A stretch of DNA of 63,409 bases from Bacillota bacterium (GTDB taxonomy: Bacteria; Bacillota; Sulfobacillia; Sulfobacillales; JAIMBI01), in the NCBI GenBank assembly GCA_021797815.1, contig JAJZYZ010000003.1, positions 53,091 through 116,499 on the forward strand, read 5' to 3'. Every line of letters begins with the position of its first letter. Positions within the stretch are counted from its first letter, which is position 1. Both the position numbers and the translations under genes were made by a program. Positions 31,373 through 48,369 of the stretch are shown here, piece by piece. The notes under the pieces are model-generated. The model saw only the letters and a list, made by a program, of their open reading frames with translations. It was not told where the DNA came from and searched no databases.

Positions 31373-32365
31373 ATGGCCCAGGTGTTGGTGGTCGATGATG
31401 ACGAGAAGAATCGGGAATTGCTGGCCGATGTCCTGACTGAAGAAGGCTATACCGTCACGCTGGCATCTGACGGTGCCGAGTGCCTCCAGCGATGCCGCGA
31501 AGGGGATGTGGGGACGGTCCTGCTGGATGTCAGGATGCCCGGCGTGGACGGGCTCAGCGTGTGTCGCGCACTGAAGGCCGACCCATCCACCGGGCTTCTC
31601 CCCGTGATCCTGGTCACCGCCTATGGAGACCGGACAGCCCGCGTGCAGGGGCTCGAGGCCGGCGCCGACGACTTCCTGACCAAGCCCGTTGACCGTGAGG
31701 AGCTGGTGCCGCGGGTCCGATCGGCGCTTCGCACCCACCGGCTTGTCCGCCAGACCAGCACCGTGTTCGCGCTGGCCATCACGCTCACGAGTGCGCTCGA
31801 GGCGCGCGATCCATACACCCACCAGCATTCGGGCCGTGTGGCCGCCTCCGCCTTGCGCACCGCGGAGGCGATGGGCGTCGGTCCGGCGCATCGTCGAGAT
31901 GTGTTCCTGGCGGGCCTGCTTCATGACGTCGGCAAGGTCGGCATCCGCGACGCCATCTTGCTAAAACCTGGGCCCCTGACCGCCGAGGAGTACCGCATCG
32001 TCAAGACCCACGCGGCCATTGGCGAGCGCATCTGCTTCAACACACCCGGCCTCGAGGTGATCGCGCCCATCGTGGCCGCCCATCATGAGCGCTGGGATGG
32101 CGGCGGCTACCCGAAGGGGCTTCGTGGAGCCGCGGTGCCGTTCCTGTCCCGAATCGTGTCGGTGGCGGATGCGTTTGACGCCATGACGTCAACGCGCCCC
32201 TACCATGCGGCGATGTCGGTGAGCGAGGCCTGCGAGGAGGTTCGCCGATGCCGTGGCACCCAGTTCGATCCGGTCGTGGCCGACGAATTTCTGAGAGTGG
32301 AAGCTTACAGAATCCAACCGGGAGACGGCGATCCGCAGAACCTGTTCGGCGTCCTCGATCTGTGA
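31373..32365 (+). CDS. Response regulator with HD-GYP c-di-GMP phosphodiesterase domain
   Basis: A 330-residue regulator. Receiver domain (D8-D10, phospho-acceptor D52 in VLLDVRMPG, Lys in FLTKPVD) followed by HD-GYP: HSGRVAASALRTAEAMG, H184-D185 in LLHDVGKVGI, HAAIGE and HHERWDGGGYPKGLRG (237-252), then SVADAFDAMTSTRPY. All residues expected of an active c-di-GMP phosphodiesterase appear present. It starts 3 bp after the preceding stop and is followed by a diguanylate-cyclase-type gene, so synthesis and breakdown are encoded together. Confidence 0.93.
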   Translation: MAQVLVVDDDEKNRELLADVLTEEGYTVTLASDGAECLQRCREGDVGTVLLDVRMPGVDGLSVCRALKADPSTGLLPVILVTAYGDRTARVQGLEAGADDFLTKPVDREELVPRVRSALRTHRLVRQTSTVFALAITLTSALEARDPYTHQHSGRVAASALRTAEAMGVGPAHRRDVFLAGLLHDVGKVGIRDAILLKPGPLTAEEYRIVKTHAAIGERICFNTPGLEVIAPIVAAHHERWDGGGYPKGLRGAAVPFLSRIVSVADAFDAMTSTRPYHAAMSVSEACEEVRRCRGTQFDPVVADEFLRVEAYRIQPGDGDPQNLFGVLDL

Positions 32366-39143: not shown

Positions 39144-40433
39144 TCACCCCGAGGTCCGAAACGGAGACCGGCTGGTAGAGGGAGGCAGGATGCCGGGTTC
39201 ACGCAAGAGTGCCTGCAGGACCGCCGCCATCAGGCGCAAGACCCCGGCTCCGGCCAGCGCCAACGCTAGCGCGAGCGCGGTTTTGGATGCGGCGACCAGC
39301 GCGACTGCCCCCGCCGCCACCCCCGTACCGTAGAGAAGGTATACCTGCCAGGTCCATGTCTCCGGAAGTATGTCGCGCATGCGTGGGACAGGTTCACGGC
39401 CGATTTTCGGCGCATACCGGTGGAGCCAGAGCAGGAACGGCACGATCTTTTGCAGGTAGCCAAGAATGGACAGTCCCATCCACCCGAAGAAAAAGAGATA
39501 GAGCACGATCGCCCAGCCACTGACGCCGCGGTCGGCCAGAACGGCGAAAAGTGCTGTCAGGGGTAGAAAGCCGAGACCGGTGAGCGCCGTCAAGACGGGC
39601 GCGTCCAGCACCCGCCGGCGCCGTGCCCGAAGGAGCGTCGTCACGTCTGCGGCGTAACAGGCAAATGCGGCTGCCCCAAACCCGCCGGCGATGCCGAGCA
39701 CGTCTGGAATTCCCATGAGGCTCCCCAGGATGGCGACGCCAATGGACGCGTTCAGAAGACCGTAGACCCACCAGGCTCGCGGAGCTCGGGCCGGGGTGAG
39801 CGCGAACATGGGAAGGAGTTTGTACGACACGCCTATGAGCGTAAACGTGAACCACCCGAGAAGGCCGAGGGCCAGATGCACGGGAATGAAGACGCCGCCT
39901 TGCATAAAGGGATGGACGAAATTCCAGGCCAGAAGCCAGCCCATCGCGACCGTGAGTCCGAGGTAGCCAATCGCGGTGGCGACATAGGCACCGGAGGGAC
40001 CCCAGATTGTCGCCTGCGCGAGGGTCCTGACCATGTTGAAGACAAATACGGCGACACCCGCCACGACCAGGCTCCCCCCTGCCGCCATCAGGGCGGGGTC
40101 CAGGACCAGCATGCCGAAGACCAGGCCGGCCACGCCCGGCACAAAGAGGCCGTAGTGCCAGAATCCGAGGCCTACGCTCCAGAGCGTGGTGTTCATCACA
40201 ACCGGCACCAGCTGGTACATGGCGCCCATCATCACCATGGAGATAAAACCGAGGGTCATGAGATGGGTGGCCGACAGCAGCGCCCCCGATCCGTACGCCA
40301 GTCCGATCAGGTTTCGGGTGTGGACGCCGAGGTCGACGAGCGCACCCAAGAGTCCCGCGAGCCCGGTGACAAAGAACGTGAGCGGCAGCGCGAGCGGCGG
40401 AGCGTTATCCGTGTGCGGACCCAAGGGCGTCAT
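39144..40433 (-). CDS. Heme-copper-oxidase-subunit-I-like polytopic membrane protein (paralogue 1)
   Basis: A 429-residue, ~12-helix protein. Conserved with the two paralogues at 41.3 and 47.1 kb: TDxAP ahead of TM1, HxxTLGxxxMxMxGxxYQxxPV (SATHLMTLGFISMVMMGAMYQLVPV), IPVHLALGLLGWF followed by YKLLPMF, and a W-L-H motif (FLLWLHRYAP). Intramembrane histidines and the Y-x-x-P-V block resemble cbb3-type subunit I/NnrS-like heme proteins, but the six-ligand pattern of a true oxidase is not clear. The DUF2249-type gene ends just upstream (overlap 4 bp), so both share a transcript. Function unknown; NO or O2 chemistry is plausible from context. Confidence 0.7.
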   Translation of the reverse strand: MTPLGPHTDNAPPLALPLTFFVTGLAGLLGALVDLGVHTRNLIGLAYGSGALLSATHLMTLGFISMVMMGAMYQLVPVVMNTTLWSVGLGFWHYGLFVPGVAGLVFGMLVLDPALMAAGGSLVVAGVAVFVFNMVRTLAQATIWGPSGAYVATAIGYLGLTVAMGWLLAWNFVHPFMQGGVFIPVHLALGLLGWFTFTLIGVSYKLLPMFALTPARAPRAWWVYGLLNASIGVAILGSLMGIPDVLGIAGGFGAAAFACYAADVTTLLRARRRRVLDAPVLTALTGLGFLPLTALFAVLADRGVSGWAIVLYLFFFGWMGLSILGYLQKIVPFLLWLHRYAPKIGREPVPRMRDILPETWTWQVYLLYGTGVAAGAVALVAASKTALALALALAGAGVLRLMAAVLQALLREPGILPPSTSRSPFRTSG

Positions 40434-40666
40434 CCTCTCCTCCCCCCGCGCCCGCTGATCCGAACGTAGACACCGTCGTTTCGGACCTCCACACCATATC
40501 GGAGAGCACGTTGGTCAAGCTCGGGGAAGAGCAGATACGGCATCCGATCGTACACCCCGGTGAGCGTCGAGGTCTGCTCGAGGCTCTTTAGGGTCATCAA
40601 GAGAGGCTCGGGCGGGGCGAACCCCCGACAGTCGAGCGTGATCGTCGTTCGCGTCGTCGAAGCCAT
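40430..40666 (-). CDS. DUF2249-type small protein (a)
   Basis: A 78-residue protein, LDCRGFAPPEPLLMTLKSLEQTS...VYDRMPYLLFPELDQRALRYGVE, matching DUF2249-like TusA-fold small proteins common near denitrification/NO genes. It lacks the CPxP cysteine of TusA, although one Cys (LDCRG) is near the first strand. The ATG at 40666 has GGAGGG upstream. It overlaps the membrane-protein gene by 4 bp. Confidence 0.75.
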   Translation of the reverse strand: MASTTRTTITLDCRGFAPPEPLLMTLKSLEQTSTLTGVYDRMPYLLFPELDQRALRYGVEVRNDGVYVRISGRGGRRG

Positions 40667-40793
40667 ACCCCCCACCCTCCCGTCGCGTCGCCCGGATCCC
40701 GGCCTGGCCGACCTGCGGACGCTCTCCGTATGCTGCCGCGCCATTCCCCATGACTAAAGCAGCCTCAGTATCACCGAGGCGTTAGAGCGGGTC

Positions 40794-40809
40794 CGTGACC
40801 GGGATCACA
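40794..40809. promoter_or_regulatory. CRP/FNR-like site A
   Basis: CGTGA-N6-TCACA; 9 of 10 positions match the TGTGA-N6-TCACA consensus. It lies 128 bp upstream of the minus-strand DUF2249/membrane gene pair. Confidence 0.6.
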
Positions 40810-40844
40810 ATAAACGGCGGCGGCTTCTACAATCCCCCATCATC

Positions 40845-40860
40845 TGTGATCGCCGTCACG
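40845..40860. promoter_or_regulatory. CRP/FNR-like site B
   Basis: TGTGA-N6-TCACG; 9 of 10 match. It lies 112 bp upstream of the plus-strand DUF2249 gene at 40973, so the divergent region has one site for each direction. Confidence 0.6.
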
Positions 40861-40972
40861 GTGTAGGGAGCGCAGGGCCCCCATACTCAGCGGGAAGTCA
40901 GGCAGACGGCCCTCTTTAGCCAGATGCTGGCCCGAAGTATCGATGCCTTGACCGACTTGAGGAGGACAGAAC

Positions 40973-41221
40973 ATGGACGCAGAGTCTGTTCCGGCCGTGG
41001 TGATAAACGCCCCCGTCCTGCCGCCACCCGTACGCCATCAGCTCATCTTCGATGTCTTCGACGCACTGCCGGTGAACCATTCGGCGCTTCTCATCAACGA
41101 TCACGACCCAAAGCCGCTCATCTATCAGCTGCAGGCGGAACAGCCAGGCACGTTCTCGATCAACTATCAGGAGTCCGGCCCCGAGCGCTATGCCATCAAG
41201 GTCACGCGTCGGGCGGTGTAA
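40973..41221 (+). CDS. DUF2249 small protein (b)
   Basis: An 82-residue protein with the clear DUF2249 core LIFDVFDALPVNHSALLINDHDPKPLIYQLQAEQPGTFSINYQESGPERYAIKV. NDHDPKPL is the family hallmark. Function unknown; the domain is often fused to or next to hemerythrins and NO-related genes. The ATG follows GAGGAGG. It precedes membrane paralogue 2 by 79 bp. Confidence 0.9.
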   Translation: MDAESVPAVVINAPVLPPPVRHQLIFDVFDALPVNHSALLINDHDPKPLIYQLQAEQPGTFSINYQESGPERYAIKVTRRAV

Positions 41222-41300
41222 CCGGGTCACGAGGAGACGTTCGGTTCACGCGCTCACGAAGGGGCCGGTCGCGGCCGACAAGAGAAGGAGTCTCGACTCG

Positions 41301-42626
41301 ATGGAGCGTCCCCCGAATGCAGGACCGTCGGCACGGCGTTACCAGCCGAGCGTGAACATAACCAGGGCTCCCGCGGCAAGCGTCCCCCTTCCCTTTATGG
41401 TGGCCGGATGGGGGTTTCTCATCTGGGCGGTCTGGGAGCTGGCCGCGGCGCGCGCCTCCTTTGCCGGGGGGGTCTTCGGCGCCTTGCCGGTGGTCGCGGC
41501 CGTGCATGGCGTGACCCTCGGCTTTCTCACACTGACGATGACGGGGTTTTTATATCAGTGGATTCCGGTGGTGTTCGACGTCCCGCCACTGCCGCGATGG
41601 TTCAGCTGGAGTGAGGGAGCCGTCCATACGCTCGGACTCCTGATGTTCCTCGATGGGTGGCTTGCGGGGGTGCCCGGGCGGATGGCTGTCGGTGGTGCCC
41701 TTCTAAGCGTCGCCCTCCTGGCCTTGGCCGTCGCGGCCGGGATGCGCGTCGCTGAGAGCCGGCGCCCTCGCGACACCGTGACCGCCGCCGTTGCGCTGTC
41801 GCTTGTCGGCCTGACGGCTACATGGGTGATGGGACTCTTGATGGCCATCGGTTTGGCCGAAGGCCAGGCAAGTTTGGGCTGGCTCGCGCTTCACATTTCT
41901 GTGGCCCTCGCGGCCTGGGTGGCCACCCTTGTCTCTGGCGTGCAGCTGAAGCTTGTGCCGATGTTTTCGATGTCGCGCGCGGCGGGTCGCCTCACGGCCC
42001 TGCCGCTCGTCTTCTTATGGCTCGGCGTCGGCGCCGCGGCCGCCGGTCATTGGCTTTCCATTCCGGGAACCCTCATCACCGCCACCGTATTCTGGTTCGT
42101 GGCCGCGGTCGGGGCCCTTGTCCTCATCACCCGTATCCGACGGGCGGGAAAGGCTCCGGAGGCCGATACCGTGTTTGTGACCGTTATTGCGGGATGGGGC
42201 CTGTGGGCCATGGCAGCCGTTCTCATCCTGGTCTCCGCCCCTCTCGCCGTCATCGCGGCGCTCGGGGGTGGGATCGTGATGGTGCTGGGCTATCAGGCCC
42301 GGCTGGCACCTTTCATGGTGGCGCTTGCAAGTGCCCGCCGCCTGCCGGGTCCGCCGGAGAAGGCATTCTTCATGGCCCGGAGCATGGGCTCCCGACTCGC
42401 GCCTCTCCTGACCGGGTACGGGATGCCCCTGGCGGTCGCGCTGCTCATGCTGGCCGTCGCGCGGCATCAGGGGGGCTATGTTCTTTCCGCCGTCTTTCTG
42501 GTCACGGCCGCGTGGGTCGGCTCCACCGGCTCCATGGCGGCCGCCGCTGTTCGAGCGCGCCGCCGACAACCCGGGCCGGTCACGCCCGCTCATGATGCCG
42601 GGTCTGCCGTTGACCTCGACCAATGA
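41301..42626 (+). CDS. Heme-copper-oxidase-subunit-I-like polytopic membrane protein (paralogue 2)
   Basis: A 441-residue, ~12-helix protein related to the products at 39.1 and 47.1 kb. Conserved elements: VHGVTLGFLTLTMTGFLYQWIPVVFD, ALHISVALAAWVATLVSGVQLKLVPMFSMS, and a third conserved stretch near GYQARLAPFMVALA, where the W-L-H motif of the paralogues is replaced. The ATG at 41301 has GAAGGAG ten bases upstream. It forms a probable operon with the DUF2249 gene downstream of CRP-like site B. Confidence 0.7.
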   Translation: MERPPNAGPSARRYQPSVNITRAPAASVPLPFMVAGWGFLIWAVWELAAARASFAGGVFGALPVVAAVHGVTLGFLTLTMTGFLYQWIPVVFDVPPLPRWFSWSEGAVHTLGLLMFLDGWLAGVPGRMAVGGALLSVALLALAVAAGMRVAESRRPRDTVTAAVALSLVGLTATWVMGLLMAIGLAEGQASLGWLALHISVALAAWVATLVSGVQLKLVPMFSMSRAAGRLTALPLVFLWLGVGAAAAGHWLSIPGTLITATVFWFVAAVGALVLITRIRRAGKAPEADTVFVTVIAGWGLWAMAAVLILVSAPLAVIAALGGGIVMVLGYQARLAPFMVALASARRLPGPPEKAFFMARSMGSRLAPLLTGYGMPLAVALLMLAVARHQGGYVLSAVFLVTAAWVGSTGSMAAAAVRARRRQPGPVTPAHDAGSAVDLDQ

Positions 42627-42958
42627 CGCGAAATTCCGGCTCACCCCCGGTCGTTGCTAGGGAGCCCAGAGACGCGGACCATGCATCTTCGAGACGTACG
42701 CGGCGTGTCGATTCTACGGGCCGTGCCGCAGTCAGAACCCGAGTCGGCGGGCGGCGTCCGCGTGCGGCCGGAATTCGCGCGCGGTCCGTGCGGCCAACAC
42801 AGCCGGAACCATTAGGTGAACAGCGACCCTGGACACCCTCCGGATGCTCCCGTGATTCGTGCGCATCACACGGGACACTCACGCACACCACGGAGCCGGC
42901 CTTCTGGAGTATCGACCGGCCCTCGCATAGACGCGTGAGGCGGTCCCAACCGCGATGC
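42627..42958. other. Intergenic region (332 bp)
   Basis: Convergent gap between paralogue 2 and the unknown minus-strand gene; no protein-like frame. It contains GTGAT (42852-42856) and ATCAC (42865-42869), an inverted pair whose spacing differs from the CRP-like sites. Confidence 0.4.
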
Positions 42959-43447
42959 TCAGGACGCCTTTCCTCCCGCATCCACGCTCCGGGCCGTACA
43001 AACGGGTGCGGCCTTTGCGGCCGCGCACGCTTCGAGTCCAGATTTTGCCGCATCCGTCCTCGGGGCGTCCGGCCTGCGCGTTCTGGCCCGGTAGTACCCG
43101 TGTCTGCTGGTCCCGATCATGAGGCCGAGACTGCCGTCCAGGATCTCCATGAGTGACCAGATGGGGCCGAGACGGTCGGCCCCAAAGCTCCGGTCCATGA
43201 TTTCACGCCAGTTGCTGAGCATCCCGCGCGGCGGAAGCGAGCCGAGCCGTATCTGACGGCGCACCAGGCCCTCGACCACCTCGGCCAGTAGGGCGTGAAG
43301 GTGGTCCGCCGCCGCGTCCGCTCCATCGATCGGACCGAGGCACGTGAGCGTCACGGGATACGCTTCTTCATGATAGACGCCTTCGCGCACCTGGAAGCGG
43401 AGACGCCATTCGCCCCCCGTCCAGACCGCATCCTTCATCTTGACCAT
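42959..43447 (-). CDS. Uncharacterised protein, 162 aa
   Basis: I do not recognise the family. The ATG at 43447 (MVKMKDAVWTGGEWRLRFQVREGVYHEEAYP) has GAGGGGG upstream. Composition is protein-like for about 130 residues (VVEGLVRRQIRLGSLPPRGML, FGADRLGPIWSLMEILDGSLGLMIGTSRHGYYRA), then a basic, alanine-rich tail with three cysteines. No signal peptide or membrane segment. It is divergent from the MIP18/SufT gene across CRP-like site C, which suggests membership of the same regulon. Confidence 0.6.
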   Translation of the reverse strand: MVKMKDAVWTGGEWRLRFQVREGVYHEEAYPVTLTCLGPIDGADAAADHLHALLAEVVEGLVRRQIRLGSLPPRGMLSNWREIMDRSFGADRLGPIWSLMEILDGSLGLMIGTSRHGYYRARTRRPDAPRTDAAKSGLEACAAAKAAPVCTARSVDAGGKAS

Positions 43448-43875
43448 CGCGCGGCCAACCCCCTCTTCAGGTCTGAGCGTCGTAGACCTGCGCGGACATT
43501 CCGTGACACCCGTCACGAACGGCTCCCAATCTCGGGGGCGGAGCGCCGGGGGAGCCAAACGCGAAAACAAGAACCCGATCCCGAAACCGTATCCCGGGCA
43601 GGTGAGCAAGGTGCCGACAGGTGGACGCGTGAGCGTGGACCGATGCGTCTGGTCTCTGCCTAGTCCCTCCCCGCGCGGTCCCCTGCGTGCTCGGCCGGGT
43701 CGCCGGCCGCCAGGGCGGGCACCGAAACCTCTTGGCCACGGGATTGTGGCCGCAAGCGGGCTGACACCCCCCGGTTGTGATCCGGATCACCAATCATGCG
43801 GCGTTTTCGGAACACGATGGAGCAGCGCTCGGACTTGGGGCCGGAAGCGCCGTGGCCTTCGAAGGAGTGGTGACG
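43448..43875. other. Divergent regulatory region (428 bp)
   Basis: No gene recognised on either strand. It holds CRP-like site C at 43776-43791 and the ribosome site GAAGGAG (43861-43867) of the next gene. Confidence 0.5.
43776..43791. promoter_or_regulatory. CRP/FNR-like site C
   Basis: TGTGA-N6-TCACC centred on a perfect 14 bp palindrome GTGATCCGGATCAC (43777-43790). It is 85 bp upstream of the MIP18/SufT gene start and serves the divergent pair. Confidence 0.6.
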
Positions 43876-44181
43876 ATGACCTGGACGCGGGAGCGCGTAG
43901 AAGAGATCCTGCAGGACGTGCTGGATCCGGAGGTGGGACTGAACATCGTGGAGATGGGCCTCGTCTACAACGTGTCGGTGGACGAAGACGCCAATGTTGA
44001 TGTGCGCATGACCCTCACGACGCCAGGATGTCCGATGCATGGCTCCATCGCCGAGGGCGTGCAGCGGATACTAGAAGATCAGCCCAACATCGGGCAGGTG
44101 GCGGTCGAGCTCACGTTTGAACCGCCTTGGGATCCTAGCATGATGTCGATTGAGGCGCTAAAGAAGCTCGGATGGCAGTGA
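43876..44181 (+). CDS. MIP18/SufT-like DUF59 protein
   Basis: A 101-residue DUF59 protein. It shows ILQDVLDPEVGLNIVEMGLVYNVSVDEDANVDVRMTLTTPGCPMHGSI, including the conserved D-P-E and the T-x-P-x-C-P motif cysteine. Homologues (SufT, PaaD N-domain, yeast Cia2) assist Fe-S cluster or metal-centre assembly. The ATG at 43876 follows GAAGGAG. In this block it may mature an Fe-dependent protein such as the hemerythrin or the membrane proteins. Confidence 0.9.
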   Translation: MTWTRERVEEILQDVLDPEVGLNIVEMGLVYNVSVDEDANVDVRMTLTTPGCPMHGSIAEGVQRILEDQPNIGQVAVELTFEPPWDPSMMSIEALKKLGWQ

Positions 44182-44287
44182 CCGCGATTTCGCCCGCACC
44201 CCCGAGGGAAAGGCCGACCCGGGGACGTGCGCCAAAACGGATGGCGCAGCGGGATCCGGACTCGTCCCTAGAAGGAGATGCGCATCT

Positions 44288-44545
44288 ATGGAGCGGACCC
44301 GGGCACCAGACTCGCCGGTCGTTCCCCTCGTCGGCGTCGATTTGGCAGACGACCATGTGCGGGCGCGTGTGCTCCGAAAGGCTAAAGGGCTTCGTGGCCG
44401 CAAGGCGCTCTACGTCGAGAGCTCCCAGACCGGGGTCGGTTTCGTGGCATGGCTCTCAACCTCAGCGCCGGAAATCGTGGCCGAGACCATGCCTTCCGGC
44501 GACGGCCGCTTCCGCGCCGTCCTGTATCCCCGATCGATGGCCTGA
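44288..44545 (+). CDS. DUF2249-like small protein (c)
   Basis: An 85-residue protein, VGVDLADDHVRARVLRKAKGLRGRKALYVESSQTGVGFVAWLSTSAPEIVAETMPSGDGRFRAVLYP. The layout resembles the small DUF2249-type proteins of this block, although the family hallmark is weak. AAGGAG precedes the ATG. It is downstream of the MIP18 gene in the same direction (106 bp gap). The frame stays protein-like after its TGA stop; see the next entry. Confidence 0.6.
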   Translation: MERTRAPDSPVVPLVGVDLADDHVRARVLRKAKGLRGRKALYVESSQTGVGFVAWLSTSAPEIVAETMPSGDGRFRAVLYPRSMA

Positions 44546-44746
44546 TCGGAAGATGCTGTCGCACAAGCCGACGAAAAGGCACGCGCCGGGAGCCTGAAAA
44601 GCGCACGCGTGGCGCTCAGCGCCTTTGACGAGGAAGCCGCCGCACGCATTGCCGCGGCTTCCCGTGTCGCCCTGACTCCCGGATGTTCGGCCCGGCCGCT
44701 GTTAGACGGGCTCCTCCATCGCTTCACGCATGCGCATCATGGCCGC
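44546..44746 (+). pseudogene. Possible in-frame continuation after a TGA
   Basis: After TGA 44543-44545 the same frame runs 66 more codons to TGA 44744-44746, with helical protein-like sequence (SEDAVAQADEKARAGSLKSARVALSAFDEEAAARIAAASR). Possibilities: a nonsense mutation in a longer gene, read-through, or chance openness in GC-rich DNA. I find only weak hairpins behind this TGA, with no convincing SECIS, so selenocysteine is not favoured. Confidence 0.3.
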
Positions 44747-44757
44747 GGCTGACGGCG

Positions 44758-44988
44758 TTATCCCGCTTCGCTCTGTGGCCGGAACGTGACAAGCCAGGTT
44801 CCGTCCGGCCACTCCACCGCCTCCGTCTCGTATCCGCGCCCGCCCATCAGATTAATCAGAGGATCCGGCCGAAACGTGGCCAGCAGCTCCCAGGCCTCGC
44901 TCGCTCCCAGGCCGGCCTGAAAAGCCATGATGGTTTCGAAAGGCTCCCGTCCCTCCTCAAGATCGCTGCGTACATCCAGGCGCTTCAT
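44758..44988 (-). CDS. DUF2249 small protein (d)
   Basis: A 76-residue protein, MKRLDVRSDLEEGREPFETIMAFQAGLGASEAWELLATFRPDPLINLMGGRGYETEAVEWPDGTWLVTF. L-D-V-R-x-D-L-x-x-G-x-E-P-F is the DUF2249 N-terminal signature. The ATG at 44988 has AAGGAGGGG upstream. CRP-like site D is 90 bp upstream. Function unknown. Confidence 0.85.
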   Translation of the reverse strand: MKRLDVRSDLEEGREPFETIMAFQAGLGASEAWELLATFRPDPLINLMGGRGYETEAVEWPDGTWLVTFRPQSEAG

Positions 44989-45525
44989 GTCTAATTTGCC
45001 CCTCCTTCGTCTCCTATGCGCGCCGGTGCCGCGCGCCTTCCCGTGCCCTAAAGTGTGCGTGGCGCGGGTGGGAGCGCCGTGATCGGGATCACAGTGGCCG
45101 TCCCGGCAGTACTTCGCGCCCGTCTTCTGACCTGACCGCTCCTGGTGCGAGATTGTGACCGCCGACACGGTGGGCCGCGGCGCGAGGGCGTACATAAGAC
45201 GCGAGGGGCCGGGGCTCGCGGCTCCAAAATCTCGGAGGGTACATCCGTCGAGCCCGAAGCCGCCATCGCGGCGCTTCCGCTCATCGTCAGGCCCGGCCGC
45301 GACGCCCACTCGATGCTGCTCCGGCGGGACGATAGGCCACAGGTTTCGGCTTCGCCTGCGCGGGCCAGGCCGTCCAGCCATTGGCCCCCGGTAGGGAGTT
45401 GCGGTTCCGCTTCGGAGAGACGTCCTGACTGACGACCCGTAGGAGCGTGAGAACGGGAGGCTCGCGACGCGGGTGCGTCGCCGGGTCAGCGCACAGGCTG
45501 TCCATTCACTAAGGAGGAGTCGTTG
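44989..45525. other. Divergent regulatory region (537 bp)
   Basis: Between DUF2249 (d) and the hemerythrin gene. No convincing coding frame. Contains CRP-like site D (45078-45093) and the strong ribosome site AAGGAGGAG (45511-45519) of the hemerythrin gene. Confidence 0.5.
45078..45093. promoter_or_regulatory. CRP/FNR-like site D
   Basis: CGTGA-N6-TCACA, nearly the same 16-mer as site A (13-base run TCGGGATCACA-like core). It is 90 bp from the DUF2249 (d) start and 433 bp from the hemerythrin start. Confidence 0.6.
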
Positions 45526-45984
45526 ATGACACAAGAGGTCGCAGAAATCGTGGCCGCCATCGAAGGGCACCATGCGGCGATGGTGCAGGAATTAGCCGCC
45601 CGGGCCGCCGTGGTCGTGGAGACGGACGGGGGAGAAGCCCGCGAGCGCGCCCGCCACGAGCTCGTAGCCTACATCGATGGTGAACTTCTTCCGCACGCAC
45701 AGGCCGAAGAGGCCACCCTCTACGCGCGGGGCGCAGACGATCCGGGATTGGCGACGCTCGTGGCGAGCATGATTCGCGAGCATGAAGTGCTGAAGAGCCT
45801 CCGAGACGACCTCGCCCGTGGGCCTGGCCGGACGGCGCTCCTCCTCCGCACGGGAGCCTTCACCGGGCTCTTTGAGACGCATGCCGCCAAAGAAAATGAG
45901 TTTCTGGTCCCGGGACTCGTCGCTGCCGGCGTGGACATCGGCGCGCTCCTTGGCGCCTTGCGCGAGGAGCTCATCGGTCACTGA
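45526..45984 (+). CDS. Hemerythrin-like HHE domain protein
   Basis: A 152-residue four-helix protein. Diiron-type ligands are visible: H-H in IEGHHAAMV, His in ELLPHAQAEEATLY with E-E, His in IREHEVL, and His/Glu in FETHAAKENEFLVP. Hemerythrin-like proteins bind O2 or NO, or repair Fe-S centres (YtfE/Ric). The ATG at 45526 follows AAGGAGGAG. It sits 16 bp from the end of the convergent Crp/Fnr gene. Confidence 0.9.
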   Translation: MTQEVAEIVAAIEGHHAAMVQELAARAAVVVETDGGEARERARHELVAYIDGELLPHAQAEEATLYARGADDPGLATLVASMIREHEVLKSLRDDLARGPGRTALLLRTGAFTGLFETHAAKENEFLVPGLVAAGVDIGALLGALREELIGH

Positions 45985-46000
45985 CGCCGGCCGCGTTTCC

Positions 46001-46735
46001 TTAGATCGGAAGGCGATGGGGGCGGGCCGGGAGGTCGCTGGCGTCGGCCCCCGCCTCCACATACGCGGCCAGCCGGTCGCGATTCACGATCCGGATATGC
46101 CGATAGCCGCTCTCCACCCATCCGCGCCGCTGAAAGTCTGCCAGGACGCGGCTCACGGTCTCGCGCTTGGTGCCGACCATATGGGCCAGATCCTCGTGCG
46201 TGAGCGCCACGTCGAGACCTTCTCGCGCCGATAGGGTTGAGAGAATTACGGCCACCTGGATCGCGACCGGGCGTCCGCGGGTGTCGCTCACCAGTTCTTG
46301 GATATAGCGAAGGCGCGCCGCCAGCATTCGGCTCACGGATTCTCCGAAATCAGGCAGGGTTCGGTGCAGGCGAAGAAACCTCTCGCGCTCCATCCAAAAA
46401 AGACGCGTGGGGTTGTCAAGCGTCCGGGCCGTCGCCGGGTAGCCGGACCCGTCCCAGATACCCGCGATTCCGACGATGTCCCCTGGCTGCCAGATGCCGG
46501 TGGTGTACACCAGCCCATCGGAGCCCGTGCGTTCGATGGCCGTACGGCCTTCGACGATGACCCATAGCCCGCTCGTGGGCTCTCCCTGTCGGAACACGAA
46601 CTCGCCACTCGTAAAGGTGCGGGTGACCCCGTTCTCGTCGAGAACATTGGCCGGAATCGACTGGAACAGCGTGAGGCTTCCAGGCGTAACGACGCGTGTC
46701 GGCGGACTCTGGCCGCCCTGGCTGGACTTTTCCAT
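46001..46735 (-). CDS. Crp/Fnr family transcriptional regulator without cysteines
   Basis: A 244-residue regulator. The N-terminal cyclic-nucleotide-binding-fold sensor runs to about 130 (GEFVFRQGEPTSGLWVIVEGRTAI, QPGDIVGIAGIWD), then a dimerisation helix and a C-terminal HTH (LTHEDLAHMVGTKRETVSRVLADFQRRGWV). The recognition helix R-E-T-V-S-R has the CRP-type R-E-x3-R, which reads TGTGA half-sites. The CRP cAMP contacts (G-E-L-G and R-S-A) are replaced (G-I-A-G, P-A-T-A), and no cysteine exists in the protein, so neither cAMP nor an FNR-type 4Fe-4S cluster is expected. This resembles DNR/NnrR/HcpR-type heme/NO sensors. CRP-like site E is 46 bp upstream of its start. Confidence 0.88.
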   Translation of the reverse strand: MEKSSQGGQSPPTRVVTPGSLTLFQSIPANVLDENGVTRTFTSGEFVFRQGEPTSGLWVIVEGRTAIERTGSDGLVYTTGIWQPGDIVGIAGIWDGSGYPATARTLDNPTRLFWMERERFLRLHRTLPDFGESVSRMLAARLRYIQELVSDTRGRPVAIQVAVILSTLSAREGLDVALTHEDLAHMVGTKRETVSRVLADFQRRGWVESGYRHIRIVNRDRLAAYVEAGADASDLPARPHRLPI

Positions 46736-46780
46736 AACGCCATACTACCGACTCCGGGACGCGGCCGCACGCGGCGTTTT

Positions 46781-46796
46781 CGTGATCTGAGTCACG
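46781..46796. promoter_or_regulatory. CRP/FNR-like site E
   Basis: CGTGA-N6-TCACG, 8 of 10 match and self-symmetric. It lies 46 bp upstream of the regulator gene (likely autoregulation) and 67 bp upstream of the divergent small gene at 46863. Confidence 0.6.
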
Positions 46797-46862
46797 TTCC
46801 ACGTCAGGAGGCCGTGGCACGGTCAAGGCGAGACCACGTTCTGAAAATCGGGGAGGCGTCAG

Positions 46863-47075
46863 ATGCATCACGAGCCTCGCATGGTCGTTCAAGTCGCCCG
46901 TCGGATGTGCATGGGCGGCGCGGAGGGCCTGAGCCTGTTGGGGGACGCCGGCAATCTGGCGCTCTCTTTCGTCCGCGGCCGCATGCATGCGACCGACCGC
47001 ATCTATTCGGACAGGTGGGACCGTCTGACGCACGGGCACGTAAGCGGCCGGTGGGTGTGGATGGACGGTGCCTGA
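46863..47075 (+). CDS. Uncharacterised 70-aa protein upstream of membrane paralogue 3
   Basis: MHHEPRMVVQVARRMCMGGAEGLSLLGDAGNLALSFVRGRMHATDRIYSDRW... The ATG follows GGGGAGG at seven bases, a good ribosome site. Protein-like, one Cys, no membrane segment; family not recognised. It sits between CRP-like site E and paralogue 3 and probably shares their transcript. Confidence 0.6.
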   Translation: MHHEPRMVVQVARRMCMGGAEGLSLLGDAGNLALSFVRGRMHATDRIYSDRWDRLTHGHVSGRWVWMDGA

Positions 47076-47121: not shown

Positions 47122-48369
47122 GTGAAGGGTCGCGTCCGGACCGACCAGGCGCCCAACCTCGGCACCCCCTTGCCCTTCTTCGGTGCGGCACAGCTCTTCG
47201 CCGTGAGCGGGCTCCTCATGCTTTCGCTCAATGCCCGCACGGTCGTGCAGGGTGTCCTTACGGGACCTGTGGTCGTGAGCATGGTCCATCTCTTCACGCT
47301 TGGAACCATCACCATGGCCATGATGGGGGCCCTCTATCAGTGGCTCCCCGTGATTGGGGCGGGGACCACGGTTCCGGCCTGGAGGGCGCGCCTGCAGTTT
47401 GTCCTGTTCACGGCGGGGGTGCTGGGATTCGTGCCGGGCGTTGCCACCGGACGCACCCCGCTCTTGGTGATGGGCGGCGTCGCGCTGGAAAGCGGCCTCG
47501 TACTGTTCCTGTACAATATCGCGGCCATGGGCCTTCTCCGCCACCTTCGAGCGCGAGACAGCGCCCTCGTGGCGGCGGGACTTGCGGCTCTTGCCGCCAC
47601 GGCCATCCTGGGCGGCCTCATGGCCGGGCGACTTGCCGCCGGGACCGCGATCCCCAACTCCTGGTTGGCGGCCCATCTGGTCCTTGGACCGGGCGCATTC
47701 GCAGGCCTGGTGCTGGCCGGCGTATCGTACCGGCTCTTGCCGATGTTTCTGCCGGCCCCGCCGCATCCGTCCCGATCCGGCTGGGTGCTGGGATTTGGAA
47801 GCGCGGCCATCGTGTCGGGCGTGCTGATGCCCGCGCTCCCGTTGGTCCCGATTGCGGTCCCGCTCCTGTCTCTCACCGCCGCCGGCGTGTTCTATCTCCT
47901 CGACGTGTCGCGGTACTGGAGACAGCGCCGACGGCGAACACCGGACGGGCTTCTCCTTCTCATCGGATCATCACATTTAGGCCTTCTGGCGGCCCTCGTC
48001 ACAATCGTGTTGGCGGTGGCCGGGGCGCGTCCTCTCCTCCCCGCCGCCGTCGCCGTATCCGTTCTTGGATGGTATCTCCTGGCCTGGCTCGGGTTCTCCC
48101 AGCGCATCCTGCCTTTCATCGCGTGGCTGCATGGGATGAGAGGCGGGCGGCGCGACACACCGCATGTGGCCGAACTCTGGCCATCCTGGCTCGGCTGGAT
48201 GACGAGCGTCGGCGCGATCGCGGGCAGCGTCGGCGTTCTCATCGGCTTTCTGATACGTGTCGTTTGGACGCTCCAGGCAGGATCTCTCCTGCTGGCGGCA
48301 TCCATCGTGTTATTTCACGGAGGCGGCTGGCGCATGCTGGCCCGGGTGCACCGGCGCGCTCACCGCTGA
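47122..48369 (+). CDS. Heme-copper-oxidase-subunit-I-like polytopic membrane protein (paralogue 3)
   Basis: A 415-residue, ~12-helix protein. VHLFTLGTITMAMMGALYQWLPVIG, AHLVLGPGAFAGLVLAGVSYRLLPMF and LPFIAWLHGM align with paralogue 1. Start chosen as GTG 47122 because GGGGAAG is correctly spaced and TDQAPNLGTPLPFF then aligns with TDNAPPLALPLTFF of paralogue 1; a GTG at 47068 overlapping the small gene stop is the alternative. Function unknown. Confidence 0.7.
   Translation: MKGRVRTDQAPNLGTPLPFFGAAQLFAVSGLLMLSLNARTVVQGVLTGPVVVSMVHLFTLGTITMAMMGALYQWLPVIGAGTTVPAWRARLQFVLFTAGVLGFVPGVATGRTPLLVMGGVALESGLVLFLYNIAAMGLLRHLRARDSALVAAGLAALAATAILGGLMAGRLAAGTAIPNSWLAAHLVLGPGAFAGLVLAGVSYRLLPMFLPAPPHPSRSGWVLGFGSAAIVSGVLMPALPLVPIAVPLLSLTAAGVFYLLDVSRYWRQRRRRTPDGLLLLIGSSHLGLLAALVTIVLAVAGARPLLPAAVAVSVLGWYLLAWLGFSQRILPFIAWLHGMRGGRRDTPHVAELWPSWLGWMTSVGAIAGSVGVLIGFLIRVVWTLQAGSLLLAASIVLFHGGGWRMLARVHRRAHR

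Follow-up and report, generated by a model that had tools for sequence, protein, structure and literature searches.

The DNA analyzed here, hereafter the window, is a stretch of 63,409 nucleotides from contig C141 of a metagenome-assembled genome (MAG; 2.90 Mb in 142 contigs) of a Bacillota bacterium in the order Sulfobacillales. Within the window, a block of 6.0 kb and its flanks carry three genes for DUF2249 proteins (D1, D2, and D3), a MIP18 gene, a hemerythrin gene, three membrane protein genes (M1, M2, and M3), a gene here called U, a small open reading frame (ORF), and the gene for a Crp/Fnr-family regulator (REG). Interspersed among them are six copies of a CRP-type palindrome, GTGA-N6-TCAC (Table 1). 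D1 overlaps M1, and therefore the two genes probably form one operon. The gene finder placed site 4 inside the MIP18 gene; the start of this gene is probably the ATG at 43876 rather than the GTG at 43777, which leaves the site upstream.

Table 1. Genes and palindromic sites in and around the 6.0 kb block. Positions are those of the window, and distances to −10-like hexamers are measured from the site center.
Feature	Position	Strand	Remarks
M1	39144..40433	−	Membrane protein of a heme-copper-oxidase-like family
D1	40430..40744	−	DUF2249 gene; start more likely 40666
Site 1, CGTGACCGGGATCACA	40794..40809		GATACT at 29 bp, facing the D1-M1 operon (−)
Site 2, TGTGATCGCCGTCACG	40845..40860		CATACT at 29 bp, facing the DrpA-like DUF2249 gene D2 (+)
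D2	40973..41221	+	45.5% identical to the Thermus nar-adjacent DUF2249 gene (DrpA position)
M2	41301..42626	+	Membrane protein; start inferred; downstream of D2
U	42959..43447	−	162 amino acids; no Pfam family found; upstream site conserved in the order
Site 3, CGTGACACCCGTCACG	43502..43517		62 bp ahead of U (−); U of relatives has a site with a −10 element at 29 bp
Site 4, TGTGATCCGGATCACC	43776..43791		CACGAT at 29 bp, facing MIP18 (+)
MIP18	43876..44181	+	MIP18/FeS_assembly_P (SufT-like) protein
D3	44758..44988	−	DUF2249 gene
Site 5, CGTGATCGGGATCACA	45078..45093		CACACT at 28 bp, facing D3 (−)
Hemerythrin	45526..45984	+	HHE-domain protein; no proximal full site
REG	46001..46735	−	Crp/Fnr-family regulator; 244 amino acids; no Cys; RETVSR recognition helix
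Site 6, CGTGATCTGAGTCACG	46781..46796		REG (−) on one side, 70-amino-acid ORF and M3 (+) on the other; CACGGT at 29 bp (+ side), TAGTAT at 41 bp (regulator side)
70-amino-acid ORF	46863..47075	+	No family; lies between site 6 and M3
M3	47122..48369	+	Membrane protein; ORF opens at 47068; fold predicted to resemble NorB and cbb3 subunit I

An initial annotation of this DNA described five palindromes of the form (C/T)GTGA-N6-TCAC(A/G/C) in divergent intergenic regions. All five (sites 1, 2, 4, 5, and 6) are present as described, and a check of the gene positions places each of them between divergent genes. Sites 1 and 2 are flanked by two divergent DUF2249 genes, site 4 has U on one side and MIP18 on the other, and site 5 separates D3 from the hemerythrin gene. 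A sixth copy, site 3, had been overlooked. The window contains 12 strand-hits of the pattern YGTGAN6TCACV where 0.88 are expected, a number reached in none of 100 shuffles. Of the 20 occurrences of the stricter pattern GTGAY-N4-RTCAC in the MAG, six fall within the block, compared with 0.04 expected (binomial P 3e-12, a post hoc value, as the block was chosen for its sites). Another site with a good score (31603-31618) lies within a response-regulator-type gene (31373-32365); it was rejected as a regulatory site and taken as chance. In relatives, gene U adjoins DUF2249 genes, and the site that precedes it comes with a good −10 element.

The positions of these sites are conserved among members of the order. 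Of 61 genomes, 37 encode relatives of REG (E <= 1e-20); almost all of these belong to the order. From them, 33 REG loci were fetched. Nine without a block-gene homologue (L037, L038, L039, L040, L043, L117, L123, L133, and L135, with 5 sites among them) were excluded, leaving 24 regulator loci plus the window. The distance thresholds used here and below (400 bp and 1.3 kb) were chosen after inspection of the first loci. Among the 66 sites in this set, 45 precede a block-gene homologue by 400 bp or less, and no site lies inside such a homologue. The corresponding upstream counts in the same loci were 0 of 18 for four letter-shuffled palindromes, 2 of 19 for four wrong spacings, and 3 of 5 for the FNR box.

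A second set of loci was fetched by D2 alone, not by the regulator. D2 matched in 37 genomes, from which 30 loci were obtained; many genomes are common to the two sets. A site is present within 400 bp upstream of 27 of the 30 D2 orthologues of the order, compared with 0/30 for each of five control patterns, including the FNR box. Further D2 copies from the order also carry the site (5/5, 5 of 15 taken), and those from outgroups in the class do not (0/5, leaving uncounted a sixth copy with only 99 bp upstream). The nitrate reductase operons of the order present a similar picture. Eighteen of 22 narG matches over the cut-off were used (G021, with 118 bp, G037:C336, and G023 and G041:C167, at contig ends, were dropped), and in 13 of these operons the 1.3 kb ahead of narG contain a site, which in most cases precedes a hemerythrin gene at the operon head. 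Over the 90 kb upstream of narG there are 30 sites, versus 1, 4, and 0 for three controls. The two narG operons from outside the order (2 of 6 matches taken) have none.

The regulator is also present in many members of the order that have no narG over the cut-off. Sulfobacillus thermotolerans is without narG at this cut-off, yet keeps sites along with its D1, D2, D3, MIP18, and M genes, and GATAAT is present 29 bp after a site upstream of MIP18. A small cupin-like gene (L323, 9769-10095) shares this divergent region, with TACGCT at 29 bp from a site.

In class II activation by Crp proteins, the site is centered at −41.5 and the −10 hexamer lies 29 bp on. We aligned 53 gene-oriented promoter rows, which represent 8 genera and are not mutually independent. 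A TANNNT hexamer begins 29 bp from the site center in 20 of the 53, and the next-best offset accounts for 3. With the looser NANNNT, 34 of the 53 rows match at 29 bp, and the highest number at any offset in 1000 shuffles was 11. This spacing places the site at about −41.5, the position of a class II activator, and thus the promoters, judged by their sequence, match class II Crp-activated geometry. In the window, the −10 element is clear at the expected offset for D1, D2, and MIP18. Autoregulation by REG is uncertain, because the hexamer on the regulator side lies at 41 bp and the start codon falls where transcription would start. In this region (46735-46800), the regulator ATG follows 12 bp after TAGTAT, which suggests a leaderless transcript; at the matching position, TACTAT is present in a near relative (L035).

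REG belongs to the Crp/Fnr superfamily, as its two domains score above their cut-offs (PF00027, 57.8 bits; PF13545, 68.3 bits) and the top Foldseek matches of its structure model (pLDDT 81) are Crp proteins. It is the only full-length HTH_Crp_2 match in the MAG, where no other Crp/Fnr regulator was found; on inspection of their sequences, four weaker matches look ArsR-like, DtxR-like, like a small helix-turn-helix protein, and CodY-like. In related genomes REG often has sites adjoining its gene, and some genomes hold 2-3 REG homologues. One MAG of the same genus carries a second regulator, 45% identical, and the distance from its gene to a downstream site is about 280 bp (L040, 6173-7080).

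Three features that the initial annotation ascribed to REG are borne out. First, cyclic AMP is contacted in CRP by E72, R82, and S83, and these residues of the Escherichia coli protein align in REG with a gap, Y99, and P100; consistent with this, the CRP equivalog model gives REG 41.9 bits against a cut-off of 266. Second, REG has no cysteine, and there is no conserved Cys column among 33 family members, so that the N-terminal cysteines that hold the 4Fe-4S cluster of FNR are missing. Third, the CRP-type R-E-x3-R recognition helix is present (R191-E192-x3-R196), and R-E-T-[VI]-[ST]-R is kept in 33/33 family members. According to the accessible part of the HcpR1 study (PMC1274295), residues R180/E181 predict bases G3/A6 of the box; through this published link, the R-E pair of REG predicts GTGA.

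The assignment of REG to a subfamily is less clear. Its identity is 26% to NnrR, 26% to the nar-adjacent Crp/Fnr gene of Thermus (DnrT), 23% to CRP, and 24% to FNR. Searched against the PDB, its profile matches actinobacterial and Thermus CRPs best, with DNR (3dkw) far lower. DNR and NnrR go with an FNR-like or TTGcg box and a helix without Arg180; REG has KRETVSR and GTGA-N6-TCAC. The NCBIfam scores are uninformative, because NnrR and DnrT themselves fall below every cut-off. DNR, NnrR, and HcpR, the names offered by the initial annotation, are candidate labels for REG, and heme/NO sensing is a candidate function. The sensor pocket has a strongly conserved motif of its own in the family alignment, G-x-A-G-x-W-D...Y-P with Trp and Tyr, which suggests that REG has its own ligand. 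His124 (conserved in 85% of the 33 family members) and His180 (100%) are candidate heme ligands.

Counted over the whole MAG, there are 54 copies of GTGA-N6-TCAC, as against 9 of a reversed control. The GTGAY-N4-RTCAC sites outside the block comprise 11 intragenic copies, two in the gap described next, and one (C108:8870, L195) that overlaps with the end of a gene and precedes a mannosyltransferase-like gene. The pair (L197 4962-5040, contig C120) is located between a gene for a SLAC1-family anion channel and a second hemerythrin gene, which heads an operon of the form hemerythrin-88aa-narGHJI in which narG, narH, narJ, and narI are all identified. The channel gene (L197 3751-4773) is divergent from this operon and possibly serves nitrate or nitrite traffic.

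Taken together, the conservation of the sites, the −10 geometry, the finding of a single Crp/Fnr regulator in the MAG, and the gene cassette shared with other bacteria (see below) support well the reading of this system as a regulon. The proposal of a regulon tied to nitrogen oxides, built around a CRP-type box and a cysteine-free, non-cAMP Crp/Fnr protein, thereby gains support from conservation across the order. We infer that REG binds the sites, that it activates transcription from them, and that it senses a signal, and we consider it quite probable that REG is a class II activator of the block and nar genes that responds to a nitrogen oxide or to anoxia. A REG dimer would read GTGA-N6-TCAC through the R-E-T-V-S-R helix and recruit RNA polymerase from a site centered at about −41.5. 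The predicted regulon would comprise the DUF2249 genes, MIP18, the three heme-copper-oxidase-like membrane protein genes, U, and perhaps REG itself, together with the distant hemerythrin-88aa-narGHJI operon and the divergent SLAC1 channel gene. When it senses absence of oxygen or a nitrogen oxide, probably NO, REG would turn on nitrate respiration at low pH, together with defense against the nitrite and NO that this respiration makes. The fact that nar-less members of the order keep the regulator, and nar-less S. thermotolerans also the sites, makes it more likely that the core role is the handling of NO or nitrite rather than nitrate respiration itself, with nar joining the regulon where it is present.

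Several observations weigh against this reading. Class members outside the order hold 5-29 GTGAY-N4-RTCAC sites per genome, and the count in the MAG is by itself unremarkable, with 11 of the 20 sites inside genes. Whole-genome enrichment (20 sites versus 2 for the reversed pattern) was therefore rejected as proof, since genomes of the class without a close REG relative also reach such counts and the control underestimates the background. The case rests on the position and conservation of the sites, not on their number. In addition, the −10 elements at sites 3, 5, and 6 and at the MAG's own nar sites are weak or shifted (that of D3 by one base, with that of U weak), and 5 of the 18 narG operons of the order have no proximal site. 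Two genomes (G009 and G017) have REG and no site before D2; the D2 copy of G009 carries an internal stop, and G017 has sites elsewhere in its D2 cluster. Three MAGs of the order (G014, G021, and G036) have a site before D2 and no REG orthologue that could be found, which could be explained by incomplete assembly (95, 93, and 71%) or by another Crp protein. Finally, neither a NirK match nor a clear NO reductase was found in the MAG (two full COX1 matches only), and therefore NO would come from nitrite chemistry or from outside.

Some of these points bear on other explanations. The one that survives best, although we hold it to be unlikely, is that REG is a cAMP-type or constitutive Crp protein whose amount sets the regulon, as proposed for Thermus DnrT, with the Drp-like DUF2249 proteins supplying the signal. 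The accessible part of PMC6282519 describes DnrT as insensitive to O2 and nitrate and as concentration-dependent, with DrpA and DrpB as proposed nitrate sensors. The likeness of D2 to the Thermus gene, the CRPs that head the PDB matches of REG, and the site that precedes REG's own gene would all fit such a system. The loss of the cAMP-contact residues and the conserved pocket motif, which suggests a dedicated ligand, argue against it.

It is improbable that the sites serve a different Crp/Fnr protein, or several paralogues among which REG is one user. The three MAGs with sites and no detected REG and the genomes with 2-3 REG homologues are compatible with this idea, as is the fact that Crp proteins of the class outgroups likewise carry RE-x3-R helices. 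Those outgroups, however, have Crp homologues without a close REG relative and no site before D2, and REG is encoded within the block, often has sites adjoining it, and is accompanied by no other full-length Crp/Fnr helix-turn-helix protein in its own MAG. We judge it very unlikely that REG is a repressor whose site overlaps the −35 region; a dimer at −41.5 would also cover −35 and could conceivably block polymerase, but the fixed 29-bp offset is the geometry of class II activation. That the palindromes are chance or codon-driven repeats without a regulatory role has next to no probability, as the intragenic copies and outgroup counts that would suit it are set against the D2 promoters (27/30 versus 0/30), the fixed −10 spacing, and the clustering.

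Under the preferred reading of REG as a class II activator, the targets named by the initial annotation stand in part. MIP18, the DUF2249 genes, and, via operons, the three membrane protein genes are plausible targets, and control of the block hemerythrin by site 45078 is not supported. No full site is nearer to this gene than 447 bp; the corresponding distances for its orthologues in L035 and L036 are 851 and 612 bp. The hemerythrin gene with a proximal site is the second copy at the head of the nar operon.

M1, M2, and M3 are paralogues, and M proteins from all three phyla, including those of rhizobial and Thermus clusters, can be aligned. Heme-copper oxidases and NO reductases have six conserved metal-ligand histidines; in 38 aligned sequences of the M family only two are invariant (56 and 185). 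A model of M3 (pLDDT 72) nevertheless has the predicted fold of heme-copper oxidase subunit I, matching NorB (4xyd) with Z 25.4 and a root-mean-square deviation of 3.6 over 362 aligned residues, and cbb3 with Z 25.1; the Foldseek E value is only 0.02, and a sequence search of the PDB with an M profile gave no match. An identification of the M proteins as NnrS finds no support: no NnrS model is among the Pfam matches of M1-M3, and alignment with hhalign to two NnrS sequences gave a probability of 1.1. The M family may already have been described, as the accessible text of PMC11218638 credits Pei et al. 2014 with the link between DUF2249 and heme-copper-oxidase relatives.

A more far-reaching interpretation, which we regard as doubtful, is that REG represents an order-wide branch of nitrogen-oxide sensors without Cys, iron-sulfur cluster, or cAMP site. 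Its aromatic pocket (W58, W82, W94, Y99, and W114) would sense NO, nitrite, or a DUF2249 partner, the NorB-fold M proteins with lost catalytic ligands would be NO or heme sensors or carriers, and nar-less Sulfobacillus would keep the regulon solely for acid nitrosative stress.

Sulfobacillales, which include the relatives of acid-mine Sulfobacillus, are important in acid mine drainage and bioleaching. Our literature search found no described nitrogen-oxide regulon for the order, and a term search of the accessible text of PMC4378227 returned neither "regulator" nor "FNR". The regulon predicted here combines sites, targets, promoter geometry, and a regulator across many genomes, including that of the cultured S. 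thermotolerans. One switch would connect three obscure families, namely, DUF2249, MIP18-like, and pseudo-oxidase membrane proteins, and this tie, beside the cassette-bearing clusters of Thermus and rhizobia, makes the function of DUF2249 directly testable.

The system has counterparts in several respects. E. coli CRP likewise has the half-site GTGA, the N6 spacing, an RE-x3-R helix, and class II geometry, and differs in its cAMP contacts and overall sequence. The HcpR1 regulon of Desulfovibrio, as given in the accessible part of PMC1274295, also joins a Crp/Fnr protein, nitrogen oxides, and a CRP-type box (wTGTGAnnnnnnTCACAw). Its targets are hcp and frdX, in contrast to the nar, DUF2249, MIP18, and heme-copper-oxidase-like genes here; hcp is absent among the scanned genes adjoining intergenic sites of the MAG, in which no search aimed at hcp was made.

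The closest parallel in gene content is the nar locus of Thermus thermophilus, for which the accessible parts of PMC6282519 and PMC5748679, together with NC_017588.1, indicate a Crp-family activator, DnrT, that like REG is free of a cysteine motif and that adjoins narGHJI. This locus shares DUF2249 genes, an M-type membrane protein, and a metal-sulfur assembly factor with the block. In strain JL-18, the gene matching D2 follows narGHJI and a transporter gene. This position is that of drpA, and the drpA product is a proposed nitrate sensor under DnrT control (PMC6282519, accessible part). The Thermus regulator differs in its helix (VPEAVSR rather than KRETVSR), and the scanned parts of the Thermus nar locus contain no GTGA-N6-TCAC.

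In denitrifying rhizobia, the Crp/Fnr gene of the NnrR regulon adjoins nirK, nor, nnrS, and a block-like cassette. Sinorhizobium/Ensifer plasmids carry this cassette as DUF2249, M-type, DUF2249, and metal-sulfur assembly factor genes, between nor and nnrS/nirK/Crp-Fnr. There, nir and nor are present, the regulator beside nirK has the helix TLHTVSR, and the NnrR box is ctTTGcgnnnncgCAAag in the accessible part of PMC1274295, unlike the palindrome described here. In Haloferax mediterranei, DUF2249 genes are induced under denitrifying conditions and have a promoter motif in common with denitrification genes; both the motif, CGAAYATDKTYG, and the type of regulator differ from those here (PMC11218638).

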